From: Apostichopus japonicus
Taxonomy: Eukaryota; Echinodermata; Holothuroidea; Aspidochirotida; Stichopodidae
Direction of reading: 5' to 3'
NCBI RefSeq assembly: GCF_037975245.1
Contig: NC_092561.1
Coordinates: 4,886,001 to 4,950,000, forward strand
DNA length: 64,000 bases
The notes below the pieces were generated by a model. That model made no database searches and had not been told where the DNA came from. It saw only the letters and a program-made list of their open reading frames with translations. Each line of letters opens with the position of its first letter. Positions within the stretch are counted from its first letter, which is position 1. The translations under genes were made by a program, and so were the position numbers. Of the stretch, positions 4,388-45,600 are shown one piece after another.

Positions 4388-4899
4388 GATTAAACAATAT
4401 TCTACAGAAGGCAGTGGTATAGATTTCTAAAAATAACAAAAAAAATGAAAATGTCATTATGGAATACTAATACTCATAAGTCATAACGATGTCGTAAACC
4501 TAACATGACCTTTGACACAAACAGAGAGAGAGAGACCATGTCATTTGTATTTGCAGATAAGCAAACCTGAACACCGCACCAGTTTAAGATTAAGCTTTGT
4601 CAAGGGGTAGGGTCAGGGGTAGGACCATTAAAGTCATTCAATGCGATGGGTCGAGGAGGTGTGATGCAGGGACCGGTCAATGTTTAATTCGGACCTGGTC
4701 CCGTTCCAGCATCCAGTAGAATGGTCCAGGTGGGTGAAGGAGATTTGAAAAATGAAGGTGATAGTTGACAAATCACAGGTCGTTTGGGTGACCACTTTGA
4801 GGTACTGCTAAGTGCTAGTGAACTTAGTCCGGTCACATGTGATTTACTTTGAGTTCACTTGTTAATCACGTGTTTCAAAAAATGGATTACTCATCTTGG

Positions 4900-5390
4900 T
4901 AATAAATCCATTAATAAGTTGTCAACATATTCCATATACTGGGAGCAACATGGTTTGTTGAACAACTTACTGAGTTACAGTTGGACAACATGTTGCAAAC
5001 AGTTGAAAACTAGTGAGTATAGTTGAACAACATGTTGCGCATCGTTGCACAACACGTTGAGATCAGTTGTACCATACACTGAGTATGGTTGAACAACATT
5101 TTCAGTAATGATGAGAACATATAAAGTATGGTCTGTTCAACATGATGAGATCATTTGTATGACTTGTTGAGTATTTTCACAACATGATGTGTTACTTAGT
5201 CACTTAGCTTCTTTTTTTATCGTTTTTAGTTATTTGAGCAACACGCTGAGATTAGTTGCTCATTATATGGACTGTAGTTGTTCAACATTTTGAGTGAAAG
5301 TTATAAAGTGTAGACCTATATTGAAACAACATGTTGAGAATATGCTTTACAACAACATGTGTCCTTTATCGCTGTATCTGTTGTGAACAA
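4900..5390. repeat. Degenerate repeat of CAACATGTTG-like palindromes
   Basis: GTTGAACAACATGTTG and variants (CAACACGTTGAG, CAACATGATGAG, CAACACGCTGAG) recur irregularly about every 30-50 bases, interspersed with short spacers. There is no open frame and no known element was recognised. It looks like a decayed minisatellite. Confidence 0.5.
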
Positions 5391-8388
5391 TGTCAGTCAT
5401 TAACACAGGCTGTAATATACAATGATAATTATCATTTGATTTGTTTAATCGTCTTGTTCTTTGTAGAAAAAATGGACAACGTGCATAATTTTCATATTTA
5501 GCTTTTTGGAAAGCAATACTTGGTATGACAGCTGGAAAACCAAAAGAACAACATTAAAAAGCAAAAACTTAAATCCTTGAAAACAGGAAAAAAATTCTTA
5601 TTTCTCTTAGATTTACCAAAATTGATGAAATTTTAGTTCAAAGTTTGTCAGTTTTTGTCACTGTTTACTGTCGGCTGCTGTCAAAACTTCATTTTAGCAG
5701 ACAGATGAGATGTAATTTTGTTATATAAATGCCGTGGTGATGTAGTGAAATTAGGAAATGGTTGTTGTTTTCAAGCATCAGATATGTTGTCTTGCTATCA
5801 CATATCTGAGTTTGCCTTCTTCGACATTGTTATAGATTCACTTGTCTTCTGTTTATTTTTACAAGGCCTTACAGGTCCACTAGCAGCTTATATTCTACAC
5901 CAATTTTATCAAAGTAAAAGTTGGAAACTGGAAAAGAGCTATTGAAGGCACAGTCAAGACCTCTTTACTAGCCATTTTCATGACTCGAATTAACTAAAGT
6001 CATAAAAGTATCTGTATGTGAAAAAAAAACATGTTTTGAGTCAGCTCATGTTTGAAATGTAGCAACTCAAAGCGATGGCTCGTTGTTGCACTGGAAAAGG
6101 AGCACAGTACCCTCATTGTTACAAGTCCTGTGCTTCTATCCTTACCTCACAATTGTTAGGATGCGTAACTGTTTTTTTTTTCATCTTTTCTTTGTGCACC
6201 CGAACATCTGTATTTTTTATTTTGTGATAAAAAATTCACTTTGAAATTGCTCTTCAAAAATGTAAACGAGAAGAGTCACGCAAAATGTGACAAGTAAACA
6301 TATTTTGTGTTATTTTGTGTAAAAGCAATTCTTTTTTGAGCTTCAAGAAAGCAGCTGTCTGTTGTGTGCTTTATTTTCACCTAATAGGCATCGTTGCTTT
6401 AATGAAGAAGAGTAAAATGGTAGGAGGGTACCCAATGCATATTCAGTTAGATTAAGTTATGAATATTTATAGGTTAACATATACACAGCACCGAGACCTC
6501 AAGTTTTGTTCATCTCTCAAGACAAGTTATGTGGCAAGTTGCATTGCCTCAAGAAGTACGGTATTGCATGATACTACATGTGATGCTGTATTTCTCGGGT
6601 TAGGGTTAACCCCAACCATAGGGTTTCCCCGGTCCACAAGATTCGTCATTTCATTGGGCTTTATCATGCATGATGACATTGGTCGACACATTAAACTGTG
6701 TACAAAACGGTTCTCTTGAGAAATACTGTCACGTGAGGATTGGTTGATACACAATCACAGTAATATCACAATTAGGCTTGATCGTGTGGGTTTGTTTGAA
6801 ATAAATAACATTTCCATGTAAACAGGAGATTGCATTACCTTTGTACATAACCATCACAAACAAACGATTTCTTATGGATACATGCCAGCGGGTATAAACG
6901 GGTGTGGTAGATGCTGGCAAGATTCGCTATGTCCTATGTAAAAGTAAGATTAGTCAGTGATTACTGGCTTCTTCTTCAAGCCATCTATAAGGTACATTGA
7001 AGGTACTGGCAATTACAAGTGTATCTTGAATTTCCTGTTATCAGGGATTTCATTTAACTATAATACAATGGGTTTGTTGGATTAATAAGATGGTATAGTG
7101 ATGCCATGAGCAGATTAATCAGTAGTCTTGAGGTGTTTTCGTGGGGGCGTGGGAGGGTAATTGTGTAATTAAGACAGTAACATATTTCCGGGCTGTTTTT
7201 GCTATTTTTGTTGAATTTGTCGAGATGGCTTGCTCGGTGATGTATCATCTTTCTGTATAGTCACCGGTCCTTAGCTTCAAATGTTCAACAAAGTTTAAAT
7301 CTAATATAATGTCTCTTTCATCAGGATCAGGATCATCACAGTGCATGCCACTTCTACAAAAAATAAACGTATTTTAACCCTAAAAATGGATTAAATTAAG
7401 TTATAATGTTCGCGACTTACAAAAAAAATTCAGATATCTATTAATCATTTTCGCAAGTAAATACTAGTCTTAATAGTCAACACTTCTGCATTGTGACAAT
7501 TTCAACGACATTCAACGCATTGTGAGAATCTGTCAGCTTAACGATTGATTAGCAGTGACTCAATTGCACGTTTTTAATTAAATGGTTTATGTACACAGAA
7601 TAAAATCAATAGTTTCCACACTGGGCAAACATTGACAACTGCCACATGTTTAATACTTGTATTAAACATATTTGAAGAGTGCAGTTTTGCAAATTTGTGA
7701 AGTGATTAAACTTGGAAAATATATTCAATATGAAGTTGGTACTTGTTTATTCTTCTCGGGATATTTGCTTTTACATTTTAGGTAATTTTTGTAGTTTAGT
7801 GATATCAAACTTCCTATGTGAAAATGCTATAATGCATTTTTGTTTAATATTGATCCCCTTGTTTCTTTGGGGTTTTCCATTTTGAAAGAAATGTTGCTTT
7901 AAGTTTTAATAATTGTTTGTTGGTTATCCTCTCGGTTGAATAAATTACCCAGTTTAAATATTACGTTTGGTGTGTTTTTGTTCTGAGTGAGTTCTGTAAA
8001 TTAAGTCAACAAGAATCGATCTAGAATGATCAGATTTACTAAGAGAAGTGTCAAAGTTCCATACACAGGGATGTTAAAATCATTATTATTCTGTTTCGTT
8101 GACATTATGAAATGCTTTTGGAACATTTTCGTCAGAAACTTATATAAAACTCATTGTGCTATGCCCCTTCCGTCACCATTGACACTCCCCTCCTGTACAC
8201 CCCCTCCCCCCCACCAAAAAAAAACAAAAGAGATGTACAAAGGAAATTATAAAAAATTCACACATTGCTGTAAATAAATTCAATGTTATAAATATCAAAT
8301 TAAACGGTAAACCTGCAGTAAATGTCGTCAAGTACATGTTCCCTTTCCATACTGTACAGTTCTTGACTCCAAAGTAAATTGCATAAGA
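5391..8388. other. Intergenic, no gene seen
   Basis: AT-rich sequence with only short open frames (under about 90 codons) that lack splice sites in useful positions or domain similarity. Nothing else was recognised. Confidence 0.4.
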
Positions 8389-10893: not shown

Positions 10894-13800
10894 CTGAAGT
10901 GAAAGAAAGCAAGAGTTGGTGATTCAATACAGTTGGTTGCATATCATCGCTTAAGTTAAGACAAAAACTCTTGCTAAAGAAATTGTACTGTGTGTCTTTT
11001 AACTTCAAGCTGCAAAGAAATATTTTCTCTCCAGACAATAAAAAAGTGCAATTCACATATGCTTTCTTTAATTATACTATTCTTTAATCAAACTAAACTA
11101 AAACTACGTCAGGCCAACTTACTTTTACACACACTAAACTAAAACTAAACTTCTAATTTAAGGACAATTCATATAGCAATTATTGTTTTGTTTTTGGTAA
11201 AACAGCACCAAACTTTCTTGTGTGATATTCAACACCGGTTGAGATATTAAAATGTATCAGTCCTACAGTACACAATATGCAAAATAATCTGTATGTCCAG
11301 GAATTCATCAATATTCAACCAGATTATGTAAAGAAGCTAGAGCCGCAAATTTTAATCATTAACTTTTACCAAGGAAAACAGACATTCTTTGTTAGAGGGA
11401 TCACCTTGCTTTGACTTCCCTTCTTTCTTTTGTTTTGTTTCTTTGAAAATTTGCCCGAAAAGTGTAAAGTAAAATCTAGATAGATAATGCTGTGCCGGTC
11501 TTCCGTCCAATAACTGTCCAACACTGTACACTGAACACTTACTGTACACTGTACACTTACGCATTGTGTCAAAGAAAAAAAGATGCAGCAGCTGCAAATG
11601 TTCTGCTGCAGCCAAGCTGAATAAATATTTGACAAGTGACGTTATCACTACAGACCGGCAGAAATGTCTTGAAATGCCAAGAGCAATTTTAGATTAAGCC
11701 CAATTCAGTCTGGCTTCAGTGATGCAGAAGCAACCCCTTCCTAAGATTGACATGGTGCCATAAGAAATGTATGTAATAGCCGAAACACTTCCTTAATCCC
11801 TATAACAATGTCGGTCATTAAAAAATTGAGGCGTACAGTACGTTATTTTACAATGTACATATTGATTTTCTATCTCAAGGAGGGAGGATTGGGGGGGGGG
11901 GATTATGGGGGTAATGCTTTTAATCTTTTTGCCAACACCCCCCCCCACACCCATCACACATGCACAATCTCTTTTGTCTACCAACATGTCCACAGAAGGT
12001 ACTGATGTCAGCTGAGACATTGACAAATGCCATGTCAGAGTAAAATTCATTAATATTCTGAAAAATTTTCAAAAAAATGATCCAAGGGGCTAATACCTTT
12101 CAGACTCTTAAATCTCATGTGACTGGCCATGATGTTGTACTTCTTCTGACCGAAGTCTAAAAATATGAACCTCCGACTGAAAAACGACGGGCTGCCAAAG
12201 TAGACGCTCTCCCTAGGAATGGCGATACTCAACTCCAAATCTTCTGCCTTCCGGAAGAGTATGTTTTGCAGAGTTGAGCTGCTACATTTATGAGTTTTGA
12301 TCATGGCCACACTGGTCAAAGGCTTACAGATTTTGGCCGAATTCTCGTCAGATTTACTGTTACGCTTTCCTGCTTGCAATTGCGATGAGTTTGAAAGCTT
12401 TGCAGAATGCTGCTTGCTAACGGCAGCAAAGAGTTTTGGCACGACAGGTTTTTTTGCTTCCTCTTTCGGAATAATTTTTTTCCAGGGTTCACTCAATCGG
12501 CCATCCAGTTCTTCCTTTTCTACGTAATCATCTTCGCTGTCCGGGAGGCTGGCCGACGCTAGGTCAAATTTCCGGGCTGCCTCCTTTGCTAGTTGACGGT
12601 GAGATTGGGCAATGTCTCCTTTCAAGACAAATTCCTGCATCCACTCATCATTTCTGATTTGGTCGTTATCCTCGTCGTAGAGGCGGTTGGCGACAAATCT
12701 CCTGGGAACGGAAAAACAAAACGTGAAATGTTTGCAAGTGATTTACGGTGCGTTCTACAAACCCTGTTGAAAAGAAGTGTTCACAATTAAAGGGATTTCA
12801 TGATCATGGCAAAAATTGAAAGCAGCTCTCTGAATTTGGTTGTCAAGTTTTCAATGCCAAACAGAACGCCCAATAAGATTTCATTGATCTAACCCAACCC
12901 TCCCCCACCCTCTCCTACCCTCCTCCCCACCCCTAGAAAGGTTAATATAAGCCAATTAATAAATAAATAGCATTTTATCCTACAGTAAAAATATTTCATC
13001 ACCAGAGTGACAACTTTCCATATTTACTTGGCTAATCAAGTACAGTATGTTAGCCAGCGACGTAGCCAGGAATTTGAAAGGGGGGGAGCACTTTTTGCGA
13101 TTGATATGGATTTTCAAAGTTGTAGGCACGACTATCTGAGCGGAGCGCCACCATCGGTTGGCGCGGAGCGTACAAGAAAATTTTGGGTTTTACAAACCCC
13201 CCAGATGGCCGGAAACGGCCCTTCCCAATGTTCATTCTGGTTCCCAGGCCTCTTGCTAACTTGAGACACCTCATTCAATATCACTTTTAAACCCAAAAAA
13301 CAAACGAGTTAAAATAGTACGTAATTCAATAATACATAATGTATTAAAATTAGCAAGGTACACAAGGGCAGCGGAAGCACTTTTAATCTGGGGGGGGGGG
13401 CACCGACGTCAAAGGGCACTTTGCAGAAATTCGATTGGACTGATGCAGCCTGATATTTAGTACCCTTTATAAATCTTATTGTATTATCTTATTTGCGTAT
13501 ACACATCACTCCATCAACGCCCCCCCCCCCTCCCCCCGTCTTAGTAGTCTTACTTTTCAACTTTTGATACTTGTAGATACAAAGATAGGCCAGAAATGTC
13601 TTTGATACAACCATAGCCAGTAATTGTCTTTGATACAACTGTAGCTAGTAAATGTTTATCGAAAAGGCTCCTTTGGAACTTGGAACGCCGATCGTGACAA
13701 CAACAGGCAACAAAGTATATACATATAAAGTCTCTTAATCAACGATAGGCTTATTTGACTGTGGAATGTTCTCAACTGAAATTTTATCTGCCTAAACGGG

Positions 13801-16800: not shown

Positions 16801-19800
16801 TTAAAAGGAAATGGAGAGTCTGCACTCTGAAGTTTGTTTTTCTCTTTCCAATAAGAAATCCGACACCTACCTGTAGCAACGATAGCAGTGCATAACCCAC
16901 TTGTGATAATATGATCAAGAGTTTTGCTTTTACTGTACATACATACCATACGTACAGTATACATTGTTACCCACTGATACTGAACAGTAGGTACACCGTG
17001 TTACTGTAGGTGAGGGATGCATGTGAATACTAAGTACTGTATTCACACTAATTTGTATGCTTTTGACATTTAGGATGGATGAATTTTAGTCACAAAATTA
17101 ATATGGTATGTTGTAGACTGTTCAAAACAAACACTGAGCACATTCGGTCCAGTTTTTACTTTAGTATATAAGTCTGTATACTTCAAATGTGTCAGAAATT
17201 ACCATTTAATCAGCTGAGGTTTATCAATTAAAAGTGACTGGAAATTTAGTCTAATATGAGCCCAGAACATTAAAAGTACTATACTATAGGACACTCTCTA
17301 CTTTCATGGTCTCAAACGACATGTTTTCCAATTGCATTACAAATGTTTCGAGTACAACTTGCATCGAATGTCATTCGAAGGGTTCTCTGTTGTCCAAGAA
17401 AACGTAGTGTTTTGGGTCAATTGAATACACAAGAACGTACAAAACAACATGGAATAACATTAACGAAGCCCAGCACTAACGAACTGAACATCGGCATCAA
17501 GTTAGCCTTAAAGGAGCATTCCAGCATGTATTTTAAAAAGTTGAATCTCTGGAAAACTGAAATAGCTACAGAGACATCACTTAGCACTCGACGTTTTAAA
17601 AAATATTGAAATTTGTCTGAATTGTCTTTAAAGTTCATATGAGTTACTGACATGTTCAATAATGGTCCATGGTCCACTCAGATTATTATTTAATACCGCA
17701 ACAACAACACACATGGCCTATCTACAGTACTGCTGTCTTCCACTGTAAAACACATACTGTACAGTATGTAAATGTATGGTTCAATACAGTACACATGAAC
17801 AAAATTTCAACTCACTTCTCCCCTGAGTATTGTATGTTCGGGATCAAATGAACTGACTTTCTAGGAGGGCCGGCGTTCATGAACAGGTACGAGCTGATGA
17901 GGACCGTCGACATGACCACGATACCGCTCAAGCATGCCAAGCTACTCATAATGGACCGGGCCATGATGAACTAGATGCAGCAGGACCCTCCTCCCGTCAG
18001 GTCAAGGCTCCATCCATCTCTCTGAATATATATGTGTAATCTTTGCTATGGATTGCGACTGTATCTGTTGAGAAATAACACAGAAAATCACACAATCAGT
18101 ATGTCAGTATGTCAGTCACAATCAGTATGTCAGTCACACAATACATGTGTCTATGCATGTGTATGGGTGTGCGTGTGTGTACAGTATGTATGCGTGAATG
18201 ACATGAATGCATGACTGTATGTGTGTGTGTATGTATGTGTGTATGTACACAACTATGTAAGTACTGTAGAACTCAAGACACTCAACAAGGAATGACATGG
18301 TGCAGTGTGCACGGTATGACTCTAGACTATGCAAAACAACAGGAAGCATTGGGGATCACCGGATCGTCTGTGAGGTAGCACTAGTGTAATCTTATTACTT
18401 AGTGTAATCTTAGTATGTTTTACTCTTCCCTTACAGTATAATACTGACTTAACTTGCATAAGTTTCTGTTCTTTGTTCTGTACTGTACTGTAGTTCTAAC
18501 AAACACTGGTCACCTGATCATCTCTGGAGCCATTTTGGGATCAACCTAGGAATACATATCATACTATTGGATGACAAGCCAATTTGGGGTTTACAGACAA
18601 AAAAATAAAATGCATAAAATACTGTACTGTACCATTGCATGGTACTGTACTGGGATAGTACAGAACACAATGTACTGTACCATTGCATGCTACTGTACCA
18701 GGACAGAACAGACCAGACTGTACTGTACCATTGAATGGTACTGTACTGGGATAGTACAGAACACACCGTACTGTACCATTGCATGCTACTGTACCAGGAC
18801 AGTACAGACCAGACTGTACTGTACCATTGAATGGTAATGTACTGGGATAGTACAGAACACACTGTACTGTACCATTGCATGCTACTGTACTGGGATAGTA
18901 CAGAACACACTGTACTGTACCATTGCATGCTACTGTACCAGGACAGTACAGACCAGACTGTACTGTACCATTGAATGGTAATGTACTGGGATAGTACAGA
19001 ACACACTATACTATACCTTTGCATGGTAATGTACTGGACATTACAGACCAGCCTGTACTGTAACATTGAATGGTACTGTACTGGGATAGTACAGAACACA
19101 CTATACTATACCATTGCATGGTAATGTACTGGACCTTACAGACCAGCCTGTACTGTAACATTGAATGGTACTGTACTGGGATAGTACAGAACACACTGTA
19201 CTGTAACATTGCATGGTACTGTACTGGCATAGTACAGTATACAGACCACACTGTACTGTAGATAAACACAGGTGTACCAATTGCCGTGACTCAATACTAT
19301 CAAAACTCTATTTCTATCTTACAGCACAAGTCTTTGTTAGAACAGGAAATTGAACTTCCTATTGAATGATCATAGTGGACATATGATCATATCATACATG
19401 TACAAACAGTACATGGATCACATAATAATCTGTATTCTGTATATATATACACAACATAATAGGGATATTGTAACAGAGCTCGTTAACATTAATTAATGAA
19501 AATTAATGAAAATTTTCTTTTCGGTGTTTATAATTGAAGCATTCAATTATAAACACCGTAAACGATACAGTAATTTCAATATGAAACTGGCCAAAATTGA
19601 TGATAGTGAAAAAAGATTTCTACAGGTTGGTGGTGTTTAGGCTTATCTAGCAAATTTTGCATACATTTAGAACTGATTATTACTGTACATATAGTACCAA
19701 GGAACTGCCGAACAAGCTTGACAATTCCAAAAAATATGATGACACAGGAAAGATGTAATCGTCTAAATATTTGTACCTGTAGGTTGGTGGTGTTTAGGCT

Positions 19801-25551: not shown

Positions 25552-26389
25552 AAGAAGCAGTGGATGACATTATATACATGCACTTTTTTAAGAAATAAAT
25601 ATATATACATTTGTAGTGTTGATGGGATTCAACCGAGTTCCAAAAGTATTGGAGCACCTGTTGTTAACCTGGATGTTGCAGAGCTTATTGATAAAATCTC
25701 GGATTTGTTATACCATACAGATTTGGTTACGACATTTCTCTTATATTCTAAAAAGAAAGACAAAATTTAACGGTTTGGATATTTAGTATTTATTCTGTTA
25801 ATGCCCCTTTATGGACTTAATGTGCTATGACTGAACACAGGCATATTGCCCCAATGGTATAGTCCTGTACTTGTAATGATTAAAGGTGATAAACTAAAGA
25901 TATTGATATAGAGAGGGGAGCTTTTGGTGTACAGTGTAATAGTTAATCAGGCACACAATAAATATTATTACTTTAAGTTTAAGGCAGCTATGTGGACTGG
26001 TATCAAAATTTGTCTTGTCGTACAATTTTTTTACTGTAAATAGCATATTAACATCAGAATAGCCAGTTTAAAGTGATAAGGGCAGGTAAGGGAAATTGCA
26101 TCAAGGGTTTTCAGAAACACGGCCACGTTCAAACCTGTCGTTCTTTGCAATAACGGATGCGAACAAGCCTGTGAGCACCTTGAAATCAAGATTAAATTCA
26201 GCATTTTTGACCACACATAAAAAATCAAATCATATTCAACAATCCACCATGGGCACCTTTATATACATCTATTATATCTACAATGGAATTTCATTAAGGT
26301 TTTTTTTTATTTCTGTTTTGGTAGCGATGAAACTAAAGTTAAATATTGCCTCTTTGTCAGATGTTCCCAAATTTTTATCATATTTTAGG

Positions 26390-27147
26390 CTAGCCTCTTT
26401 CAGAACGTCTTGATCGAAGTTTTTGCAGATATTTCAGCTCTGGCAAGGTCAACTGACTACATAAATGTGGATTTTTAGCTTTGTCATTCAACTGAAAACT
26501 GTTGACCTTGATCCCCGCTGGATACCACATCCTGGGATCGCTTCGATCCATCGTTCTGGAAACACAGTCCTTTGAGAGTTCTTCGTTTCTGTCTCTCAGC
26601 GCCGCCACGTCTTTGGCCATCCTCTCGTTTCCATACGCCGCCACTCTCTCCCACAGGGTCCTGTTGAAGTGCTCGTACAGTAAAGTGTCCGCCCAGTTCC
26701 AGCGCCGGATCGCCTCCCGCTCCACGCCCGTGAGCGAGACCACAGAGTCTTTACTTCTGGCGTTCTGTTTTAGGTACGCTACATCGTCCAGCTCCCAGCA
26801 CATCATGTCTTTCAGCAGGATCAGAGATTCGTCAAAGTGATCAGCTATCAGGACCAGATCGTGCCACTTGTCCAGAGCAGAAATGAACATCTCCGCGGAG
26901 GTGTCACCAGGTTTCACAAAACGGGCGTTGAAGCCGTTATCCTGGCACATTGGATTCCGTCCGGCCTGCAAGGACTGTCGTTGCTCCCGGTTTGCGAAGT
27001 AGAGATCGGGATGGAGTAGAAATGTGTGGAGATCCGCTCCGAAGCGGCCGTGATAACCGTAATAGGTGTACATACTCTCGTACTGCTCGGCCGGATCTCG
27101 AAGTATCGTCAGATACTTTGTGCCAGCATTCATCACATTTTTGAGAT
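26390..27147 (-). CDS. Gene C exon 4: C-terminal half of domain 2
   Basis: The acceptor is CTAATCAACAG|AT. The exon carries YLTILRDPAEQYES and NPMCQDNGFNARF, where Gln replaces the Tyr and Phe-Asn replaces Leu-Asp of the other two copies. It ends PELKYLQKLRSRR and TAG. No donor of useful phase precedes the stop, so this is a true terminal exon. Confidence 0.85.
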
Positions 27148-30100
27148 CTGTTGATTAGGAGTCAATAAAATATCAAAATCATAAGAAGGCACTTGAAAGG
27201 AAAAAAAAAAAAATAAGCCATCATAATAACATCTGTATATTAATAAACAGCAATGCTGGAGGTAAACGTTGTATGTCAAAAAACTATACATTAAGAAAAA
27301 ATAACATATGTATGCAAATCAGTGTTTTCTGAGCACTACATGAAAAATGTTGTACGGGGGACCCACATGACTACAACATATTCGGGTGGGCTGATGTCCA
27401 GTTGAAGGATGGCATTTCTAAAAATTTGCATATTTGAAGAAAACTAAACGATCGACGTTCGATATTAACAAAATCATACAACACACTTCTTGAAACTACA
27501 GTATGCAATAAGTTTTACTGGCCTTCCATAAATGAATAAATAGTACATGCATCTATACACATGCAAAGACCGTACTCATTTACCACTGTGGTAAAAAGTA
27601 AACTGTTAGATCAAAGAAGCACACAATAGATACAATTAAATAACTTCCAGCTTATTTAACGCAGAGTAATATATCGATGAATATGTCAGTTCACTCAAGA
27701 GCGATGTCACCTACACTTGTTAAATATCAAGGCGTTTCTGTCTGAAGTTTCAATTAAGTACTATAAAGATGACAATTTGATATTTCAACAAAGAAAAAAT
27801 GCCAAATATTTAATTAACATCTTGAAGTGATCAAAGCTCCAATCAACATTTGAAAATCAATTTCTGCACCTTGGTCTGAAAGGTTTCATTTTCACCACTA
27901 AATGAAAAAAAAATGGGCAGATGTTTGGCAATAATATTAAGTTGTACTTTGATGAAGGGCATATCAACAATGCTGTCAAAATTGTTGACATGTTCCCCTG
28001 TATAAATTACATTCAAATTTTCTGCAAAATAATGAACTTATGTATACACTAAGTACTGTATGTAACCAGATTTGTGAATGCTTGATGGAAGACAATTTAA
28101 TTCACAAAACTTGCCTGGAGTAATTGATTATTCTATTGCAAACCTGACAGTAAAATGTAATTTTCCCACCAAACTGATAAACCCTGCAAAAAAATTCTAC
28201 TGTCCATGGCTCTTTCAATATTTGACAAGTGTATGAAACATAAATTGGAATAATGGACCAATTTTAAGTGACAGATGCCACTGCTAACATTCTCAAGTGT
28301 GTAGATGCTGCAAATTGCTCAAACTTTGTAAAGTGTAGCAATACCACGGCAATTGGCAATGGACGAATCGATCATTTTCATTTCAAAACTTTAATTGGCA
28401 AAAATACCAAACTCGTATCATCTGCTGAGAGGAAAGTGTCTGCAAAAATTTCCACTAGTTTGAAGAATATTAAAAACCTGATTGTAGTACTCAACAACAT
28501 TTGCCACATTTCAAAAGCACCATTCCTGACACACACACCGATAAATATAGAAACCATCAGATCTATTGTACATAGTAGTTATAGACCAATGTAATAATGA
28601 CTGTTACCATACCTTGGAATTTGCCGAGATCAAATTTCATGTGACTTGCCATGATGTCGTACTTTCTCTTCCCATCGTCCATGAATATGAACCTTCTGTT
28701 GAACGGGTAGACTTGACTGAAATAGACCCCTTCCATGGGAATTGCGATGGAGACGTCGCGGTCCTCCCCCCTCCTCAGCAAAATATTCTGCAGCGTTGAA
28801 CTGCTACATTTGTGAGTTTTGATCATGACGACCCTATCCAGTGGCATGCACGATTTGGATTGGAGCTCTTTCGTTCCCAGTTCCGTTGAATGGTTCGATC
28901 TTACGTCTGCTTTCGGTAGACCTGCCCCACCCTCGGACACACCGTTAACACCCCTCTCCTTCCCTTCCAGCACAATCTGTGACCGTGTTTCATTCCCTGT
29001 GTCTGTGCTCTTAATACCACTGTCGACTGTCTTAGGTAGTACTATAACAGCAGCTAAACTTTCCTCTTTGTTTGGGCTTTGCACATTGTTCGACTTGTTA
29101 TCTTTGGAAGATGAGACTGCCTGCTGGTTGCTACGGTCACGACCATCTCCAGCATCCATGATCCGTCTCATCTTATCGAGGTACTCAAGCTCCGGTCTGC
29201 AGAGCTGGCTGCACAGGTACGGGTCTCTGGCATCTGGGTTAGCTATAAAACTGTTGACTTTAACACCTTGTGGGTACCAAACCCTCTTGTCTCCAGACGT
29301 GAGCTTCTCCCTGACACAGTCTGCCTTCAGGCTCTCCTTCAGACGCTGCAGCTTTCCTACCTCCTCCACCATCTTGTCTCGGCCAAAGGCGTCAATCTTT
29401 TCGTGCAACGTTCTGTTGAAGTGTTGATAGAGTAACTGATCTGCCCAGTTCCACTCCTTGATGGCCTGTTCTTCTTTTGGGGTGAGCTCCACGATGGATT
29501 CTTTTATCCTAGAGTTGGAAACCATGTATGCCACATCCTCGAGAGACCAGCACAAGATATCCTTCAAAAGTACGAGCGACTCGTCGAAATAGTCCGCTAT
29601 CAGAACCAGGTCCAGCTGACTGTCCAGAAGGGAGATGAACCTCTCGACGGCAGGGTTCCCAGCTTCGAGGAAACGAGCGTCCAACCCGTTATCATAGCAC
29701 ATTGGATTCCGGCTGCTCACTCGGCCTGTGCTGGTGTGGAAAGGTGCAAAATAGTTCACTGGATATTTCAAAAAGTCGTGAAGGCCAACATGGAAGTTAT
29801 TATGCCACCCGTAGTATGTGTAGAGGCTCTCAAACTGTTTGACGGGGTTACGCATTACAGACAGCCATTTTGTGCCATTCTCCATGAGTCCCGTTATGGC
29901 TAATATAGAGATAAGAGAAAAAAACGGTAGTGTAGTTGAAAAGTGCAACAGAGGAAATTTACAACAAAAATTTTCAGATGGGGGAAGGGGGGGGCAAGTT
30001 GATTGCCATGATGAGGTACCTGGGGAAGGTGGAGGTTGGAGGTGTCAGGGGATTTGTGTGGGGGATGGGTGGGGAGGTGAGAGGGATTGAGATGTGGGAA

Positions 30101-32611
30101 AGTGATGCTGGGGGGTGGTGGGGAAATGGGTGGGTGAGAGAGACAAGGAGTTAACTTACGTGAACTGGGAACATGGATCATGTCAAGATGAACAGACCTA
30201 AAGGTCATTTGGCCTAAACAAATCTGACCATTTAAGACTGTTTCATAGCTAAAGAGAAGTTACTTTCTGTGTCGATTTCCACCACACAGTAAAACTGACA
30301 TTCAAATCAGGATTGTCCCTTTTGCATGTTATATATTTAGTTTTTTCCAAGTTTGTTGCTAAATTTTCATAAACAATTAGATAATTTGAATATCAATTAA
30401 GATTCAAACTAATCACACTATTTAAGACTGCATTAAAATGAAAATTAAATTAAGGAATGATTAAGTTTAATCACAGTAGTGCTAAAAGGGCAAAATTTGA
30501 ATTTTCAGACCAAATAAGAAATTAAGAAGTGCTTCAAGTCTTCTTCATTCTTATTTGAAACGGAGGGATGCCCGGCCAAACTACTCAAATTTTCTCACCA
30601 GGGAAATCCGAAGCGGTCACTTTCATGTGGCTTGCCATTACGTTGTACTTTTTCATTCCGTCGTCCAGGTAAATCACATCCCGTTGAAATCGTTGGAAAT
30701 CGTTCAGGTAGACCCCCTCTTTAGGGAGAGCCACCCGAAGATGGTTATTCTCTGCCATACGCAGTAGAATGTTCTGCAATGTAGAGCTACCACTTTTGTG
30801 TGTCTTTATCATGATCACGTTGTGACCGGGTTGACATTCTCTTCTGGCTTCTTCTTCTTCTTCTTCTTCTTCTTTTTCTTCCTCCTCCCCATGATGCGAC
30901 AAAGTCGACACATTCAACAAATGTTCAATAACTAAAGCTTCCCTGACTGTAGTCCTATATAAACTGGCAGTGGTTATTGCTTTGCTCTGAGCTTCAATGA
31001 TTGATCTGCAAAGAAAGGAACAAACTTGTGTTCATCTGGGCCGGCTATACAGAATTTAAATAGACTCATGTTATTTGAGCTGTAGGCAGTTGTCCCTCAC
31101 CCCCCCCCCCCTCCCCCATAAGTGCTTCATAAAGTAACTGTGCATCTAACAAAACATTTCGAACCAACTTTCAATCAACTTAGTGTATTGTCAGTGCAAT
31201 TACAACAACCAGCAAGCCCAAAGGCTTAATGATTCCTTGCCATGATATACAGGAAGACATGTTATGAAATTTTTAAGTTTTTATTAGCACAGGGAAATCA
31301 AAAATTGCAAAATGCTGTACAGTACTGATTACATCTGTCTGATTTGTGGAAATTCTTTGCTTGCTTTGAAGAAGGTACTGTAAAAAAGATTAAAATTTCA
31401 AGTTTAGGGTACAGTAATTGCAGGTGGCAATAAAAGTTTTCACTAGATCTGCAGCTGTTTTTCTTTCTGTTGAATGTACCTGCTTTGCTTCGAAGAAAGA
31501 CTTTTACGTCATAAATACTTAAGACAGCATTTTCATGCCAGGACCCATAGTATTTACCTGTAATGGTGCTATGTAAATATACAATACTGATATTGACTGA
31601 TATTTACCAGCACAATATATCAAGTTGATCTTGTCGTAACCTTTACCTGACGTTGAACTAAAACACTCTCAACCTCAAAATGTAAAATTCCACAAGCTCA
31701 AACTGGTTTTGAAATATCCTGCACCTCTCACTTCCCTCCGCCCCACACCCCCCCCCCCTCCCCTCTTTTTAAGAAATTTTTATATGATAAAATTAAGGGT
31801 GCTTTAAAATTGAAAAGTGTTGAACATTATATGAACTGCAATTTTGAAGATCTATGTTAAAGCATTAATTTTTCACGAAAATTGTCACTGATTTCTTTTT
31901 TCTTGGCAACCCTCAAAAACATGTTTGGCCAACCTTAGAATGGTACTCTGAATGTACCGGGTTTACTGTATGACTGAAGGTAGAGTCTGAAACTCCTTTA
32001 AATAAGAAATGATGGTATTTTAAAGGGTGTGAAGACTCGCGCAAAAAGAAACGTCTACTGTCAGTAATCTGATCTAGTTTCAAAGGTGTATCAGAAGTGT
32101 TAGACACCACCATCAATCCCAGAAAATACACACACAACTTGCTACCGTCGGTAATTAGACACTAGGGTACAGTCAGTTTATACAGCTGCGGTCAATACCC
32201 ACATAAAAGTGTATAAACGGTAGAGAGATGGACATCTCAGGTCCAGCTAAAGATAACAAGGTATCATGTTTCATTACTGTCTGCATTTTGTAGCGACACG
32301 AACAAAACGTCACTTGCAAGCAACAGAAACAACAGTGAAAGATGAAACATCAGTTAACTTTTTCAGATGGCCGCACGCGGTTTTGGGCGAGTCTTCAATG
32401 CCTTTAAACCTCTCACTCTTAGTTACCTATTCGGTGTTGTATCTTTCAAGGTGATCTGTTGTTGATCTTTGTATTTAAAGAGATAAAATGTATATATGAG
32501 GATGACCACTGTCACTAAGCCACATAATCTTTGGAAACCTCTTCTCTGACAGTGAATTTTACGAGTCGCAGTTGCACAAGTTTGTACAATACACTGGCTG
32601 AAGGAGGGCAT
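26390..32611 (-). CDS. Two-domain galactose-3-O-sulfotransferase-like gene C
   Basis: Four coding exons in transcript order: 32611-32427, 31005-30599, 29899-28613 and 27147-26390. Junctions are in phase (AG|A Arg, G|CC Ala, G|AT Asp) and total 879 codons including TAG, so 878 residues. Residues 29-45 form a single membrane anchor after a short basic tail, as in Golgi type II enzymes. Domain 1 runs from the PAPS loop IKTHKSGSSTLQN (128-140) through MRNPVKQFES (213-222) to about 444. A linker of about 108 residues follows. Domain 2 runs from IKTHKCSSSTLQN (557-569) through ILRDPAEQYES (641-651) to the end. Known Gal3ST enzymes have one domain. Both domains keep the PAPS-binding motifs and the FDES-LLKD block, so both may be active; the substrate is unknown. 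Splice sites are by eye. Confidence 0.85.
27148..28612. other. Gene C intron 3
   Basis: AT-rich intron with no recognisable element. The open frame at 28268-28594 on the other strand has no support. Confidence 0.55.
28613..29899 (-). CDS. Gene C exon 3: second half of domain 1, linker, first half of domain 2
   Basis: One uninterrupted 1287-nt reading frame encodes the 3'-phosphate half of one Gal3ST domain (MRNPVKQFES, NPMCYDNGLDARFL, DYFDESLVLLKD), then a Ser/Asn/Lys-rich linker, then the PAPS loop IKTHKCSSSTLQNILLR and YDIMASHMKF of the next. The acceptor is ATATTAG|CC and the donor TTCCAAG|gtatgg; both phases are 1, so the exon is symmetric. The continuous frame is the direct proof that the two domains belong to one protein. 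Confidence 0.9.
29900..30598. other. Gene C intron 2
   Basis: It includes a strongly G-rich stretch at about 29975-30140 (GGGG and TGGG words on the plus strand, so C-rich in the transcript). Open frames there are compositional. Confidence 0.55.
30599..31005 (-). CDS. Gene C exon 2: stem and PAPS loop of domain 1
   Basis: The acceptor is TTTCTTTGCAG|A and the donor TTCCCTG|gtgaga. It encodes a stem with a glutamate run (residues about 102-114, from a GAA-type microsatellite) and then IKTHKSGSSTLQNILLR. Here Ser-Gly replaces the Cys-Ser of the other two loops, closer to the usual KTHKTG form. YNVMASHMK follows. Confidence 0.85.
31006..32426. other. Gene C intron 1
   Basis: It contains the TTAA-flanked MITE at 32020-32407, which ends only about 20 bases from the exon 1 donor, and two short C-runs near 31100 and 31750. 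Confidence 0.6.
32020..32407. mobile_element. TTAA-flanked MITE, copy 1
   Basis: TTAA at 32020-32023 and 32404-32407, with inverted ends AAAGGGTGTGAAGACTCGCG and AAAGGCATTGAAGACTCGCC. It is 388 bp and non-coding. It is homologous over its whole length, in reverse orientation, to 39174-39538. Confidence 0.85.
32427..32611 (-). CDS. Gene C exon 1: start codon and signal anchor
   Basis: ATG at 32611; donor CCGAATAG|gtaact. It encodes 61 residues plus two bases. A Cys/Arg/Lys-containing cytoplasmic tail of 28 residues precedes a hydrophobic segment, LCGLVTVVILIYTFYLF, then a Lys-rich lumenal start. The topology and the exact phase match to exon 2 support it as the Golgi anchor. No domain similarity is available for so short a piece. 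Confidence 0.72.
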
Positions 32612-35465
32612 CTTAGAACGGTAACTGCAAGAACAAAAACGAATTGGGAGGATTTTAAATCATTGTTATGTTTGATAATCGGTCATGATTTACTCTGTAT
32701 TAACTTTCAAGATATGCAAAATCTTTGTAGCACAATTCCATACAACTTTTACACGTATGTAAAAGTTGACAGTACGTGGTGAGATTATCAAGAAACACAA
32801 TGACAAATCGGTTATCTAGATTTAGGTCAGGAATATTGTCCTAAATTAAACTAAAATATTTAACAGTACTGCGGACATGAAAATCACATACAGCTACAGT
32901 ATTTGTACTGAACAGTGCACTACAATCTGAAGATCGTCATGGTAATGTCATTCACTGACCTGAGTGCTCTTCAAGGTCGTTGCAGTGTTTGCAAATTCCT
33001 AAATTCTTTCAATTACGTAGACGAAAAATTGATGTTTCAATCCCTATTCTTTTTTACTTTCCCGGTGTGCTATTTGCAAATTAAATAAATTAGTAAAATG
33101 TAAACTGCACTCTGTGTACAATTTGGAGGATTATTTTTTTTTGGTGTCATTATTGTTTGCATTCAAGAAAACTTCAACAGCAAATATTTTTCTGAGATGT
33201 CACTTTTAAGGGTAGTTAGTATAGGCCCCAAATTAATGCATGCTATTATTGCTAGAAGTTTTCAAAAAGTAATTTCCTGGAGGTCTTTACTTTCCAAATT
33301 GTTCTCAGACAGTTTAAAGGAACACACAAGATGACTGAATGCCCCAGTGAGTAAATTTCCTCGAAGGTTGTAATAAAAACAGTTTAAGAATTTTGACCAA
33401 AGATGACCATGCATATTTGAATATCTAGCATATATTTGTGGCCAATACAGCATACCTTTAATGTCATAAAAAGATTATAATCTTGAAGAAGTCTGCTAAT
33501 TTTCCCATCCCCCTCCCCTTCCCCCTCCCCGCCAAATGTAACTACACCTCTTATTTACCATAGCCTAGACCAGGGGTTCTCAATATACACTGAGAGGGCC
33601 AAATGCAGCCAACAAAAGGTTTTAATCAAACTACAAATCAACAGCCACTTTGATCATGATCGAAGGCAATATTCACTACGAACTGCACGTGGCTACCAAA
33701 GAGGCTAATTGTGACACTTTGGACAGTTCATGTCTGTAAAGACTAATATAACATAAATAACTTTAAAGAATGTGATAGAAATTAAAGCTTCTGAGGCCTA
33801 CAGGCAGAAAAAGACAATCACCTAGTTGAAATGCAAATCACATTTCAATGAAAGCATAAAATACTATTATGTATGTACAGAATATGTATGTACAGTAGAT
33901 ATACTGTACAGTATATATGTATTAACATGATATTCCATCGCGTTGCAACTAGCTCAGTTTATGCTGTCAGGCTACATTTAAGAACCCATGAGAATTATTG
34001 TCACTCTTTGTATGGGGGAGTTGTAGGGTATGGTATGTAGTGAAAGACTAAGAGTTATACTACATGAAATACATGCCATCTAATTGGTGTTATTGTTATG
34101 TGCACTTTCCCTTTATTGTTATGTTAATGTTTGTGTGGTATTCCTTGCAGCTGGTGTACTGTACTGCTGTCTGCAGTTTAGTGTTGGAGAAAACACAGTT
34201 CAGCTCTGACTCTGGTTGTGTCATGGCTTCTTTGACTCTCTCTCTCTCTCTCCCACCCGGCCTCTACAAACTAACTTTATTACATACGATAGACCTATCA
34301 ACTGTTACCAAGTTCCACGTAGCTCACCACTACTAACTAGCATATTTATATAGGCCTAGGCTAGTATTTGATAAGTTCAACTTACAAATAATGCACCACG
34401 GTACGGGTCTGAACTTGCCATTCGCTTATCAATTTGGGTCTTTCTTAGTTTCATTGGTTACTCTTACTCGATCGGGGTTGTCGCTCCTGCAAGTCCCTTC
34501 GCCCAGTCTGATCTGCGAAAAGTCAGGGCTAGAACGCGTACTGTGGTATGTAGGTAGTGCTTCGCGTACAAAATGTACTGTGAGCTAATATGTCATGAAA
34601 GGTGTCCTTTGGTTTACGTGTCATAAAAGTCAATAAAATATAACCGCATTAACTTACCAACGCTATGTTCATTTCTTTTACTTTTTTTTTCTTTTAATTT
34701 CATATGAAAATACACGGCAAAACAGAATAGACAAATATTATCGAGCCAATGCGTCCTTGGCCGTTGATTGTTGTTGACCTTGACGTTGAATGCATCACGA
34801 TTTTTGTCTACATTGTACGATTAAATAATATCGAATGTCACTGCACACGCTAGAGAGCGTTAATTCGCAGAACCGGGATGCCTTAGTGACTATATGGACC
34901 TGCTCTACATGGTTACTGATTGACATGCGTTCAGTGTATGTTTATATACAGACAGCAACGTATATATATAAATAAAGTTCTGGGAAAGACATGAAAGCAT
35001 TGCCGACTCAAAGTTATGTGTGCCATTATAGTCCTAATAGTATGTCTCTGTCTCAAGAAATGAAACCATCTGTCTCACAGTAAATGTTTGAAACGCGAAG
35101 GTTGGTATACGATAGGCAAAAGCACCAATGGGGATGGGGGAGTGTTTCAAATTATTTTCTTCTTTGAGATGATCTAATGTTGGTATGGTGAGATAACGTC
35201 CTAACTGGATTGATATATTGGCCACCTCTACTCACTTTCAGTACTGGCTTCATAACTTTTTGTACTGATGTTCCCCGTCCCAGATCTCGATTCCTTCACA
35301 GAAAAATAGCCTACACCTCCGTCTTTGCGAAAACTTTACTTTTGATGTTGCTGAAATCTTTATTTTTTTAATAAAGCCATATCGATATGTTTGCCCCACA
35401 CCCTAATCCCTTTCGATACCCTCGTTATGTCATATTTCCCATCCCACTACTTTCCAACTAAATTT

Positions 35466-40861: not shown

Positions 40862-42679
40862 TGTCATTCGTTATATGTAACGCAATTTTCATTCGTTTTA
40901 GTAACACCCTCGTTCAGCCATTCCAGATTTCATGATATTTACACATTGGCCCCTCAGTTGCATATAGAAATTTCGATATAACTTAGGTCGTTATTTGTGA
41001 TGTATAACGGAATATACTTTTGAGATAAAAAGTGAAATTTTGATAAATGAAAGAAAAGGATGTAATTTCGAGGAACGAGTCTATATCGTCAGTTCGCCAC
41101 AGTCCATTACAATTAAATTAAAGACCAAAGTCAATATGATGTCAGATTATTAGGTTCAGTGCCTGTACAGACTGACTGCATGTACATTTTTTATCAGTTC
41201 TTCTATTGTCTATTTATATGGTGCACCCACATACAGTACGTAGGCCAATCAAAATGAAGTATTTGGTCACGCGCACTGTTTAAATGTTTTGTATAAACAT
41301 CACTACTACAGTACTACAGCTGTACGGTACACGCTATGTGTACCGCTGTAATAATCCTACACATACTAGGTTTCAACGCTCTACTGCACTAGCCTAATAC
41401 TAATAGGCCTTTCGTAATTCCAATCGACACGTCGGAATCATACGGTCGTAGAGTAAAGTTTATTTTTAATTTGGTAAGTATGTTTTGTGTATATATCGTA
41501 AAGCACGATCTCCTACATTTTCTTTGTATCAAATACCAAATCTGAATGAAGAATTCCCAAATGAAATGAACACTCACAAACCACTATATAACTTAGGCCT
41601 AACCTAGCCTAATTATCTGTACACATAACTTAGTGCAAGGGCCTGACGTTTCGATCCTAGCAAGTAGCAGGATCCTACCAGTTTAATGTACTAAGACTCG
41701 AGTACAGGTAGGAAGAAATGGGATTTAGCCAGGGCCCAGGTCTTTCATTAGGTCTGACATGTAACTTGGCTATAGGCCTAGGCTAATGAGTAAAACTAAA
41801 TAAGTACACTAAATAAGTGTGCGAATGTTAGGCTAGCCTAAGTACAGTGTGATAAACTTCACAGCCCATCATTGTTATGAAACAGAAAGGTAAAAGCCAT
41901 CTTTCATGTACTTTGACTAATATTTCTTAAATATTTTTAGTTTCTTAATATCCATCAATTGGCCAAAAATGTTGGCATAAAAAGTACATTGCCATGGTGC
42001 TGTTAATAGTTTATATGTTTGTCCAAAATGGTTTGATAATTAATAGAATGCATTTTAGGTCCCAACATAGTTTATATGTCAATTTTCATTATATAAGACT
42101 TATAGAAAAAGGATGATTAAATAAGAATTTAAGGATCAAGAGTATGTGAGTGCTGGTAATGTTTCCTTCTCGAGCTTTCGATTCTCAAGATAATTCACCT
42201 TCACAGTACATCTAGCCTATATGTTTAATATTGAACATAGCCCAAGTATTAATGTCAGCAATCATTAACTTCAACCGTCATTTACACAACAAGCAAAGCA
42301 AAGCATCACAAACTTGAATGCATTGTAAATGTAAAATTTTACAACCTGAAAGTGTTATCTTTCTCTGTTCATGAGAAGATGGTCCCATTCTAGATGTCAT
42401 TCATCCACTTTTTGGTGCCAGTGATATTTAAATGGTTATGGTATTTTCAGACACAGGCCCTCTCCTCTGTATTGTACATGGACTGCAGCTAGCACTGCGC
42501 TGTCTTTAAGTGGCCTCCGTCTAAGACTATCACACTAAATTTTGCACCTACATTAAGTTTTCTGCCCTCATAGGTTTCATATAAATTTAATTTTCCATTT
42601 TTCATTAAGTCATTAAATTTCTGTTGTTCAAAGGTTTCATGCTCTACTGTACACATGTGTATTACACTCCACAGTAAAG
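40862..42679. other. Region upstream of KIF18
   Basis: No coding exon was recognised. It should contain the promoter and any 5' non-coding exon. TCCACAG just before the ATG at 42680 could be an acceptor, which would put a non-coding exon upstream. A retroelement-like motif lies at 41638-41690. Confidence 0.4.
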
Positions 42680-45600
42680 ATGCCATCTAAATCTCCTAGA
42701 AACTTAAGGACTCCTTCCAGAGGTGGAAGGGGTCACCTCAAAGTATGCAGCAGCCAACATCCCGATGACCAGTGCGGTGCAGACAACAGCAATGTACGGG
42801 TTGTGGTCAGACTTCGTCCAATGAATGATCGGGAGACCCAAGCCAACTCAAACAGCATCATCCATGTCCTGGATGAGAACGTTCTCATTTTCGACCCAAA
42901 GCCAGAAAACTCTCCCAGTCACTTTTATCACGGTAAGAGAGTCCGGCACAGAAACATGCTGAAGAGGAAAAACAGAGATCTGAGGTTCGCTTTCGACCAT
43001 GTCTTCGATGGGAGCTCCACCCAAGATTACGTGTATGAAAACACCACAAGGACTATTGTTGACAGTGTGCTGAATGGGTTCAATGCCTCAGGTATAGTCT
43101 TATACTTATAGAAGCATATTGATTGCATTATAACTTTCATGCAAGTCGCTTTAAATATCTGGCATCCTCAGAACTTCCATCATATTGTCAAAGATAGAAA
43201 TGTATGACATTATAGGCCTGTTTAATTCATTCCGTACGACAGTAGCAGTGTATCCAACGTAGAAGTATCGGTCTGTCGGCACAGGATCAGTTCGTTTTCG
43301 ACACTTCTTGGACACGTATTGCAACTGACAAGAATAATCACTGTCTAGATACATACCTGCACAATGAAAGCTAAAATAAAAAACAAGCTTACCGTACTTA
43401 TATTTATTAGTCATATTTATAATATTTATTTTATAATTAATATTTATAATTTATAATCATATGCGGCTATGCATCCATTGGCCTGAATTGGTATCAATGT
43501 CACTTGTATTCAAAATTTTGACAAAATACTGTATGCCCTCCAACGTCTTTATTGTAGATTTGACTTGTCAAACTTGTGGAGCTCTTTCAATGTAAGTACT
43601 ATATCTTCTCTACAACTATACATGTATACTTGCATGTGCTGCTTTTCATTAACAGTGTTTGCGTATGGAGCCACTGGGGCAGGTAAAACACACACAATGC
43701 TGGGTGCAGGTTCAGAATCACCTGGTGTCATTTATCTGACCATGGTGGAACTGTACCAGAAGATAAGTGCCATGCAGAGTGAGAAGTCCTGTAATGTTAC
43801 CGTGTCTTACTTGGAGGTAAGTTTTTCACTTGGGTGAGTTATTCCATTCCTACTCGAAGGGTCGCGACTCCTGCTCGCGAGTCAGTTGACTCGAGCAATG
43901 TGTTCCGCTCACTTGGGGTCGTGACTGTTTTCAAAGATTCTTCGTTGAAAGCCACATTCAAAAAATGACAACGCCGTAGTCACCAGTACGCAATCCTATC
44001 CTTCCATTGACAAACTGAATTCGTTCATTAGCGTAAAAGCGAGCCTCTTTCAAACTCTATCAGATTTGGCGCATTATGCCAAGTATAAACTATGTCATGT
44101 ACAAGATGCTCTCGCATGTTGCAAGACAAGTTTGCTGTTGTTTTGACTATTTTCTCAAAAATCACAGTTTTTTTTTTGTCAGAGATAAATAGGCAAATTA
44201 ACTTACTGTAGTAAGAAAACTGGTCCTGTTGTTAAAATTTAAGATACTGTGTGTCCAGTACTGTTACACTACCAATTGCAAATTACAGTATGCCCTTCTT
44301 ATCCTATTCATATGCATTTATTATTTGGTCAAAATGGGACACAGGAGAATTGCTTTATGTGTCCTGCAGACTCACACTATGTATCAGAATGAATTTCCAG
44401 GAATGAATCTGTTATTGCTTGTACCGTATAATTATTTATGGATGGCATACAGCACCCATTTGTATACAAAAAAAAACGTTTTAAACATACATGTTATTTG
44501 AGACTATATTTATCCTTTTGAGTCTCTTTTAAGATTAGTGTTGGTTTCTGAGGAACTGACCTAACGGTCTAGATGTATTAGACTAAGCATTCCAGCCACT
44601 TTGATTGATGAGCCTGAGAGGTTCAATGGGGCATTTTCCACAAATTCAATGTGACTTGGACAGAAATGAGTGGTTTTTCAATGGTCTGTTAAATATATAT
44701 CAATAACAAGTTTGTTTCTACATTTTTTTAGACTTGAAATATTTGGAAAGTTTTGTAACTGAAATCAAACACGCAAACCAATTATAATTATTATTTTACA
44801 TGTGCAGGTTTACAATGAAACTGTAAAGGATTTGATAAAGCCATCTGGCCCGTTAGCAATAAGAGAAGATCCCCAGAATGGTGTTCTGGTCAGTGGTTTG
44901 TCAGTTCACAAGGTAATTATTTATTTCACTCTCCTTTCTCTCTTTGCCATTTTTCTTTGGGGGCTTTGTAAAATGTTAACAACACTTTCCTCACCCCTTT
45001 TCCCTCCCCCACTCCCCTACATCATTTGCGACTCGTCCCAACCCTCTAAAATCACAGCTGAAACTTGTTTCGCAGATCTAAATAAAAATTGTTTTCCAAA
45101 CATGAATGAGATCTAAGATTATAAACGTCTTTATTTATTTTTTCATTTTTTTGGAACGCGACTTGAATTTTTCTCTGTTTGTTGTTATTTGTGTCCAGCC
45201 CAAGAGTGCGGAGGAACTTTTCCAAATGTTAGAGTTTGGCAACCAGAACAGGACTCAGCACCCTACAGATGCAAACAAACAGTCATCGCGGTCACATGCC
45301 GTGTTCCAGGTACAGTAAATAGTACATACAGTATCTTGCCTCTGTACGGACCTTAATGTTCACTTTTACAAAATGTTGATGCACCTTTAAGCCAACTTTG
45401 CGTTAATTTGGGATACCAGGGTGGGTAGACAGTGTAACCACTGAGAGAAATATTTGCCATAAACCTCATCTCAATATTCATGCCCAGTAGTTGAATCACA
45501 CATGTAGTCTCTGTGTCATAGACTAGGTGTTCTTCAAACAGTTTACTTTTTGTTTATAATATCCTTGTTAATTTACCTGTGAAATGTGATTCAGCTCTTG

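Follow-up and report, generated by a model that had tools for sequence, protein, structure and literature searches.

The closest described relatives of the gene reported here are the galactose-3-O-sulfotransferases (Gal3ST, Pfam family PF06990), among which we take the vertebrate GAL3ST1-4 to belong; the members that we know of have one domain per chain. Among Golgi enzymes, NDST and LARGE each carry two catalytic domains on a single chain. Sea cucumbers are makers of unusual sulfated glycans. For fucosylated chondroitin sulfate, the key genes and their evolution are stated to be unknown in one genome paper (PMC10213396). We analysed a window of 64,000 nucleotides from Apostichopus japonicus (contig NC_092561.1, forward-strand positions 4,886,001 to 4,950,000; positions below are those of the window unless a contig is named), and describe on its minus strand a gene, gene A, that would be a fused gene encoding two Gal3ST domains (D1 and D2) in one chain. 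We put the probability of this reading at roughly 0.8.

The gene model comprises four exons, given here in the 5' to 3' order of the gene:

32427-32611 (185 nt), minus strand: gene A exon 1, with the ATG and the sole strong hydrophobic stretch (about residues 24-48), the predicted anchor; GT donor in phase 2
30599-31005 (407 nt), minus strand: gene A exon 2, a stem that carries an acidic tract, followed by the N-terminal (PAPS) half of D1 (IKTHKSGSSTLQN); donor in phase 1
28613-29899 (1287 nt), minus strand: gene A exon 3, the composite exon, in which a linker of about 100 residues connects the C-half of D1 to the PAPS half of D2 (IKTHKCSSSTLQN); donor in phase 1
26390-27147 (758 nt including the stop), minus strand: gene A exon 4, the C-half of D2; PF06990 match of 178.5 bits over profile positions 142-400

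Joined in phases 2, 1 and 1, these exons give an open frame of 878 codons plus a stop. When GT/AG combinations were tried inside intervals chosen around the expected junctions, 40 were open; they differ in the exon 1 donor and the exon 2 acceptor, while the exon 2 donor, both borders of exon 3 and the exon 4 acceptor are common to all 40. An in-frame stop at 32662, 51 bases 5' of the ATG, and an AATAAA at 26311, 3' of exon 4, are consistent with the ends of the gene, and one mRNA would run across all four exons. The first-pass annotation had claimed that a single 1287-nt exon links the C-half of D1 to the PAPS half of D2. This claim stands, as the exon is open throughout and has in-phase GT/AG borders.

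A Pfam search of the 878-residue product, which that annotation had proposed, found PF06990 in two stretches with 455.7 bits in all, against a cut-off of 27. Taken singly, exon 2 scored 59.7 bits (profile positions 37-137) and exon 3 scored 201 bits over two stretches, the C-half of D1 beginning at profile position 142. The two domains align without gaps and are identical at 168 of 324 positions (52%). The top hydropathy window of the product reaches 1.86 at residue 29 and forms the one strong peak, which lies in exon 1; by this crude test, a type II topology with a single N-terminal anchor is predicted. The four-exon model, the double PF06990 match and the single hydropathy peak together bear out the predicted 878-residue product with one anchor and two complete domains. 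The stem of D1 also contains an acidic run (EEEEKEEEEEEEE) at about 30850-30889, encoded by a GAA/GAG-rich repeat and likely to be variable in length.

The linker is where a stop might have been concealed, and it is open throughout in the assembly sequence. Its 100 codons contain no stop, whereas a sequence of this length stayed open in 0.97% of 20,000 trials of a first-order Markov simulation based on the linker's own bases. A codon score trained on the two gene A domains against introns was highest in the correct frame of the linker (0.269 versus 0.137 and 0.028). Of two control stretches, the stem of gene B (described below) likewise had its highest score in the right frame (0.291), but that of gene A exon 2 scored -0.183 in frame and was not best there; the codon score is therefore weak evidence.

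About 14 kb downstream of gene A, on the same strand, lies a second Gal3ST gene, gene B, with 13,999 bp between the facing Pfam matches:

17816-17964, minus strand: gene B exon 1 (predicted), with an ATG, a hydrophobic stretch and a donor AA|GTGAGT in phase 2
12097-12701, minus strand: gene B exon 2, encoding the stem and the PAPS half, with its donor in phase 1; PF06990 match of 71.9 bits
10115-10893, minus strand: gene B exon 3, C-half and stop; PF06990 match of 184.3 bits

Exon 1 of gene B was picked by hydropathy, consensus donor and phase alone. The predicted product has 510 residues and a single domain. Gene B resembles gene A in its strand and in its intron phases (2 and 1); unlike gene A, it has one domain and a longer stem, and its anchor exon is a separate, predicted one. 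Just upstream of its predicted first exon, at 18518-19105, are minus-strand repetitive open frames that are minisatellite-like. Elsewhere in the window, the plus strand carries kinesin motor exons (PF00225) at 42617-43837.

Genes A and B belong to a large Gal3ST family in this assembly, judging by its sequence matches. Across 671,581,487 bases in 35 contigs, at least 71 exon-level matches to PF06990 were found, six of which belong to genes A and B; many are single open frames that lack the intron of these two genes. We then counted same-strand neighbours at most 20 kb apart in which a match that extends to at least profile position 330 is followed by one starting before position 110, that is, a domain end and then a domain start. 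Ten such pairs occur among the 71 matches: the one inside the composite exon (310 bp apart), gene A with gene B (13,999 bp) and a further eight separated by 1,607 to 11,674 bp. The composite order inside one exon was thus seen once among the matches found. At the DNA level, exon 3 is matched over its full length at one place in the assembly, and only one of the 81 assembly matches to its protein covers both of its parts. The earlier claim that relatives of gene A are single-domain agrees with these counts, in that only one of the ten neighbour pairs within this assembly appears to share an exon, and all six multi-exon paralogues examined have a single domain.

Two candidates for a second two-domain gene were set aside. 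The pair 1,607 bp apart on contig C17 consists, judged on open frames alone, of two separate open frames, and a 517-residue frame on contig C15 contains one domain, its ATG frame being 498 residues with a longer tail. The survey also brought up four Gal3ST copies of equal match score and range, spaced by about 22 kb on contig C23 (1693849-1764140); together with a close relative at a further locus (L007), they look like a recent local amplification. On contig C12, near 8,488,400-8,492,400 (positions 4469-8367 of locus L031), a further, incomplete C-half comes after a Gal3ST gene and might be either an alternative last exon or a duplicate that has decayed.

The most plausible reading of the composite exon is that the final exon of one gene unit became continuous with the middle exon of the unit that follows. 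The ancestral unit would have had three exons, namely an anchor exon, a stem and PAPS-half exon after a phase-2 intron, and a C-half exon after a phase-1 intron. Local duplication would have lined up copies of this unit. The next step would have been a deletion, or an unequal exchange, that began at the end of the C-half exon of the first unit and reached into the stem of the PAPS-half exon of the next. It would have taken out the stop of the first unit, together with the anchor exon and phase-2 intron of the second, so that a single composite exon remained. Its linker, about 100 residues long, would be the tail of D1 plus the stem of D2. We count in favour of this fusion the phase-1 introns of the six two-exon paralogues elsewhere in the assembly, all of which have a phase-1 acceptor before the C-half and four of which have a phase-1 donor near the matching place, as well as the phases 2 and 1 of gene B. 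Counted against it are the two paralogues in which no donor passes the filter at the matching place, and the phase-2 donor-like site that lies just before the phase-1 donor in two of the other four.

The fused chain might still contain one domain, most likely D1, that is non-catalytic and acts as a binding or scaffold module. The first-pass annotation had suggested that one domain may have drifted, and in part this is so. Over 62 well-conserved columns (at least 18 paralogues filled and one residue at 80% or more), D1 departs at 16, for example at A146, W209, S211 and H363, gene B at 11 (leaving aside one gap that trimming introduced) and D2 at 8, which makes D1 the more drifted domain; its branch in the tree described below is also the longest of the three (0.75 versus 0.42 and 0.51). 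Yet both domains keep the residues that are invariant in the family. Over 16 columns that are invariant in 26 paralogues, a set with near-identical pairs and hence fewer independent observations, D2 keeps all 16 and D1 keeps 15. The exception in D1 is A146, where all 26 paralogues have G and gene B also has A. The KTHKxxSST loop and a later R...S, which we take to be PAPS-binding residues, are kept in D1, D2 and B, so that K, T, H, K, S and T of the loop and the later R and S are retained in both domains of gene A. In sequence, neither domain looks decayed, although D1 is more diverged. We regard a non-catalytic D1 as unlikely, and lean towards both domains being active.

The two domains also differ in two motifs on which the annotation had remarked. 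The contrast between the PAPS loops (SGSSTLQN in D1, CSSSTLQN in D2) is real, but it is not peculiar to D2, since gene B also has CSSSTLQN. The difference in the NPMCxDN block was confirmed, with QDNGFNAR found in D2 alone and YDNGLDAR in both D1 and B. Given these differences, it is possible that D1 and D2 act on different acceptors.

Alternatively, a domain could have been duplicated within a single gene to give the two-domain form, with gene B later split from D2. The phylogeny was built with 29 rows drawn from the 71 matches: D1, D2, B, 20 single-frame loci and 6 two-exon reconstructions from match ranges. Three of the four copies in the row on contig C23 (L004-L006, with the same matches as L003) and matches that had no retrieved locus were left out of both the tree and the count of 26 paralogues. 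D1, D2 and B form one clade with support of 100/100. Their C-halves are mutually 52-58% identical, and for the exon 3 C-half no match beyond genes A and B exceeds 39% identity; short PAPS-half matches outside these genes reach 43%. Within the clade, the best tree pairs D2 with B, but not strongly (84/62), and neither D1+D2 (p-AU 0.299) nor D1+B (p-AU 0.272) is rejected. Internal duplication is therefore allowed by the tree, and the intron within each domain has equal phase, as that history would have it. On the other side stand the best tree itself, the highest C-half identity, which is that between D2 and B (57.7%, versus 51.6% between B and D1), and the single domain of the six multi-exon paralogues. 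We consider internal duplication quite improbable and prefer the fusion of tandem neighbours, with deletion as its presumed mechanism.

We see still less reason to expect that the locus yields separate D1-only and D2-only enzymes through alternative transcripts, with the full two-domain mRNA minor or absent. Signals that such transcripts could use do occur. ATTAAA motifs lie in introns 2 (30471) and 3 (28395, 28101 and 27814). Introns 1 (32350 and 31260) and 3 (28557) contain hydrophobic ATG frames that could be alternative first exons. The linker itself holds one donor-like GTAAG (28904) and two acceptor-like sites (29101 and 29041). However, exon 3 has no stop, the donor-like site is in phase 0 and gives no in-frame junction to exon 4, and the acceptor-like sites are in phase 1 whereas exon 1 ends in phase 2. 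ATGs near the linker (residues 441, 445, 549 and 556) are followed by no hydropathy window above 1.2. No acceptor with at least 10 pyrimidines of 15 was found in the phase needed for a direct junction of exon 1 to the linker, a weak filter given that the exon 4 acceptor used in the model reaches just 9. Finally, an assembly or sequencing artefact, either a stop hidden in the linker or two loci falsely joined, is extremely improbable, as both domains are complete and in frame, the DNA of exon 3 matches at full length once, and the assembly statistics agree with a PacBio HiFi assembly (PMC10344927).

If gene A is a fused gene, its product would be a type II membrane protein, presumably of the Golgi, whose two luminal sulfotransferase domains would depend on PAPS and, as a covalently linked pair, might act on glycans or glycolipids that carry galactose. 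The product is assigned to Gal3ST by sequence family only, and transfer to C3 of galactose is putative. More tentatively, and with greater doubt than confidence, we suggest that the two domains differ in acceptor preference, so that a single protein would sulfate two sugars, neighbouring or successive, of a holothurian glycan or glycolipid. If true, this would be the first Gal3ST with two working domains known to us. A two-domain Gal3ST beside a single-domain neighbour would offer a natural test of how linkage affects specificity or processivity, and a fusion that drops the second anchor would be a route to a two-domain Golgi enzyme.

Searches beyond the assembly returned little. Neither exon 3 nor a three-domain profile matched any PDB sequence at E values up to 1. 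In scans seeded by short peptide patterns, which can miss distant relatives, the exon 3 protein had no match outside the genome, and a three-domain alignment gave 42 pattern matches in viral contigs and 20 in prokaryotic genome contigs, none of which was confirmed. No two-domain Gal3ST was found in a literature survey that was judged partly by titles and abstract openings and lay mostly outside subscription papers, so precedent may exist elsewhere. As far as these sequences go, the two-domain form would be a variant known here from a single genome.

Compared with the Gal3ST family, gene A appears to differ in architecture and not in the domain. Each of its domains matches PF06990 over most of the profile, and it shares with the family the anchor, the PAPS loop and the later R and S, whereas the chain would hold two domains in place of the usual one. 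In arrangement it resembles NDST and LARGE, which likewise combine a single anchor with two luminal catalytic modules. The modules of NDST and LARGE catalyse different reactions, while the two predicted modules of gene A both come from one sulfotransferase family.
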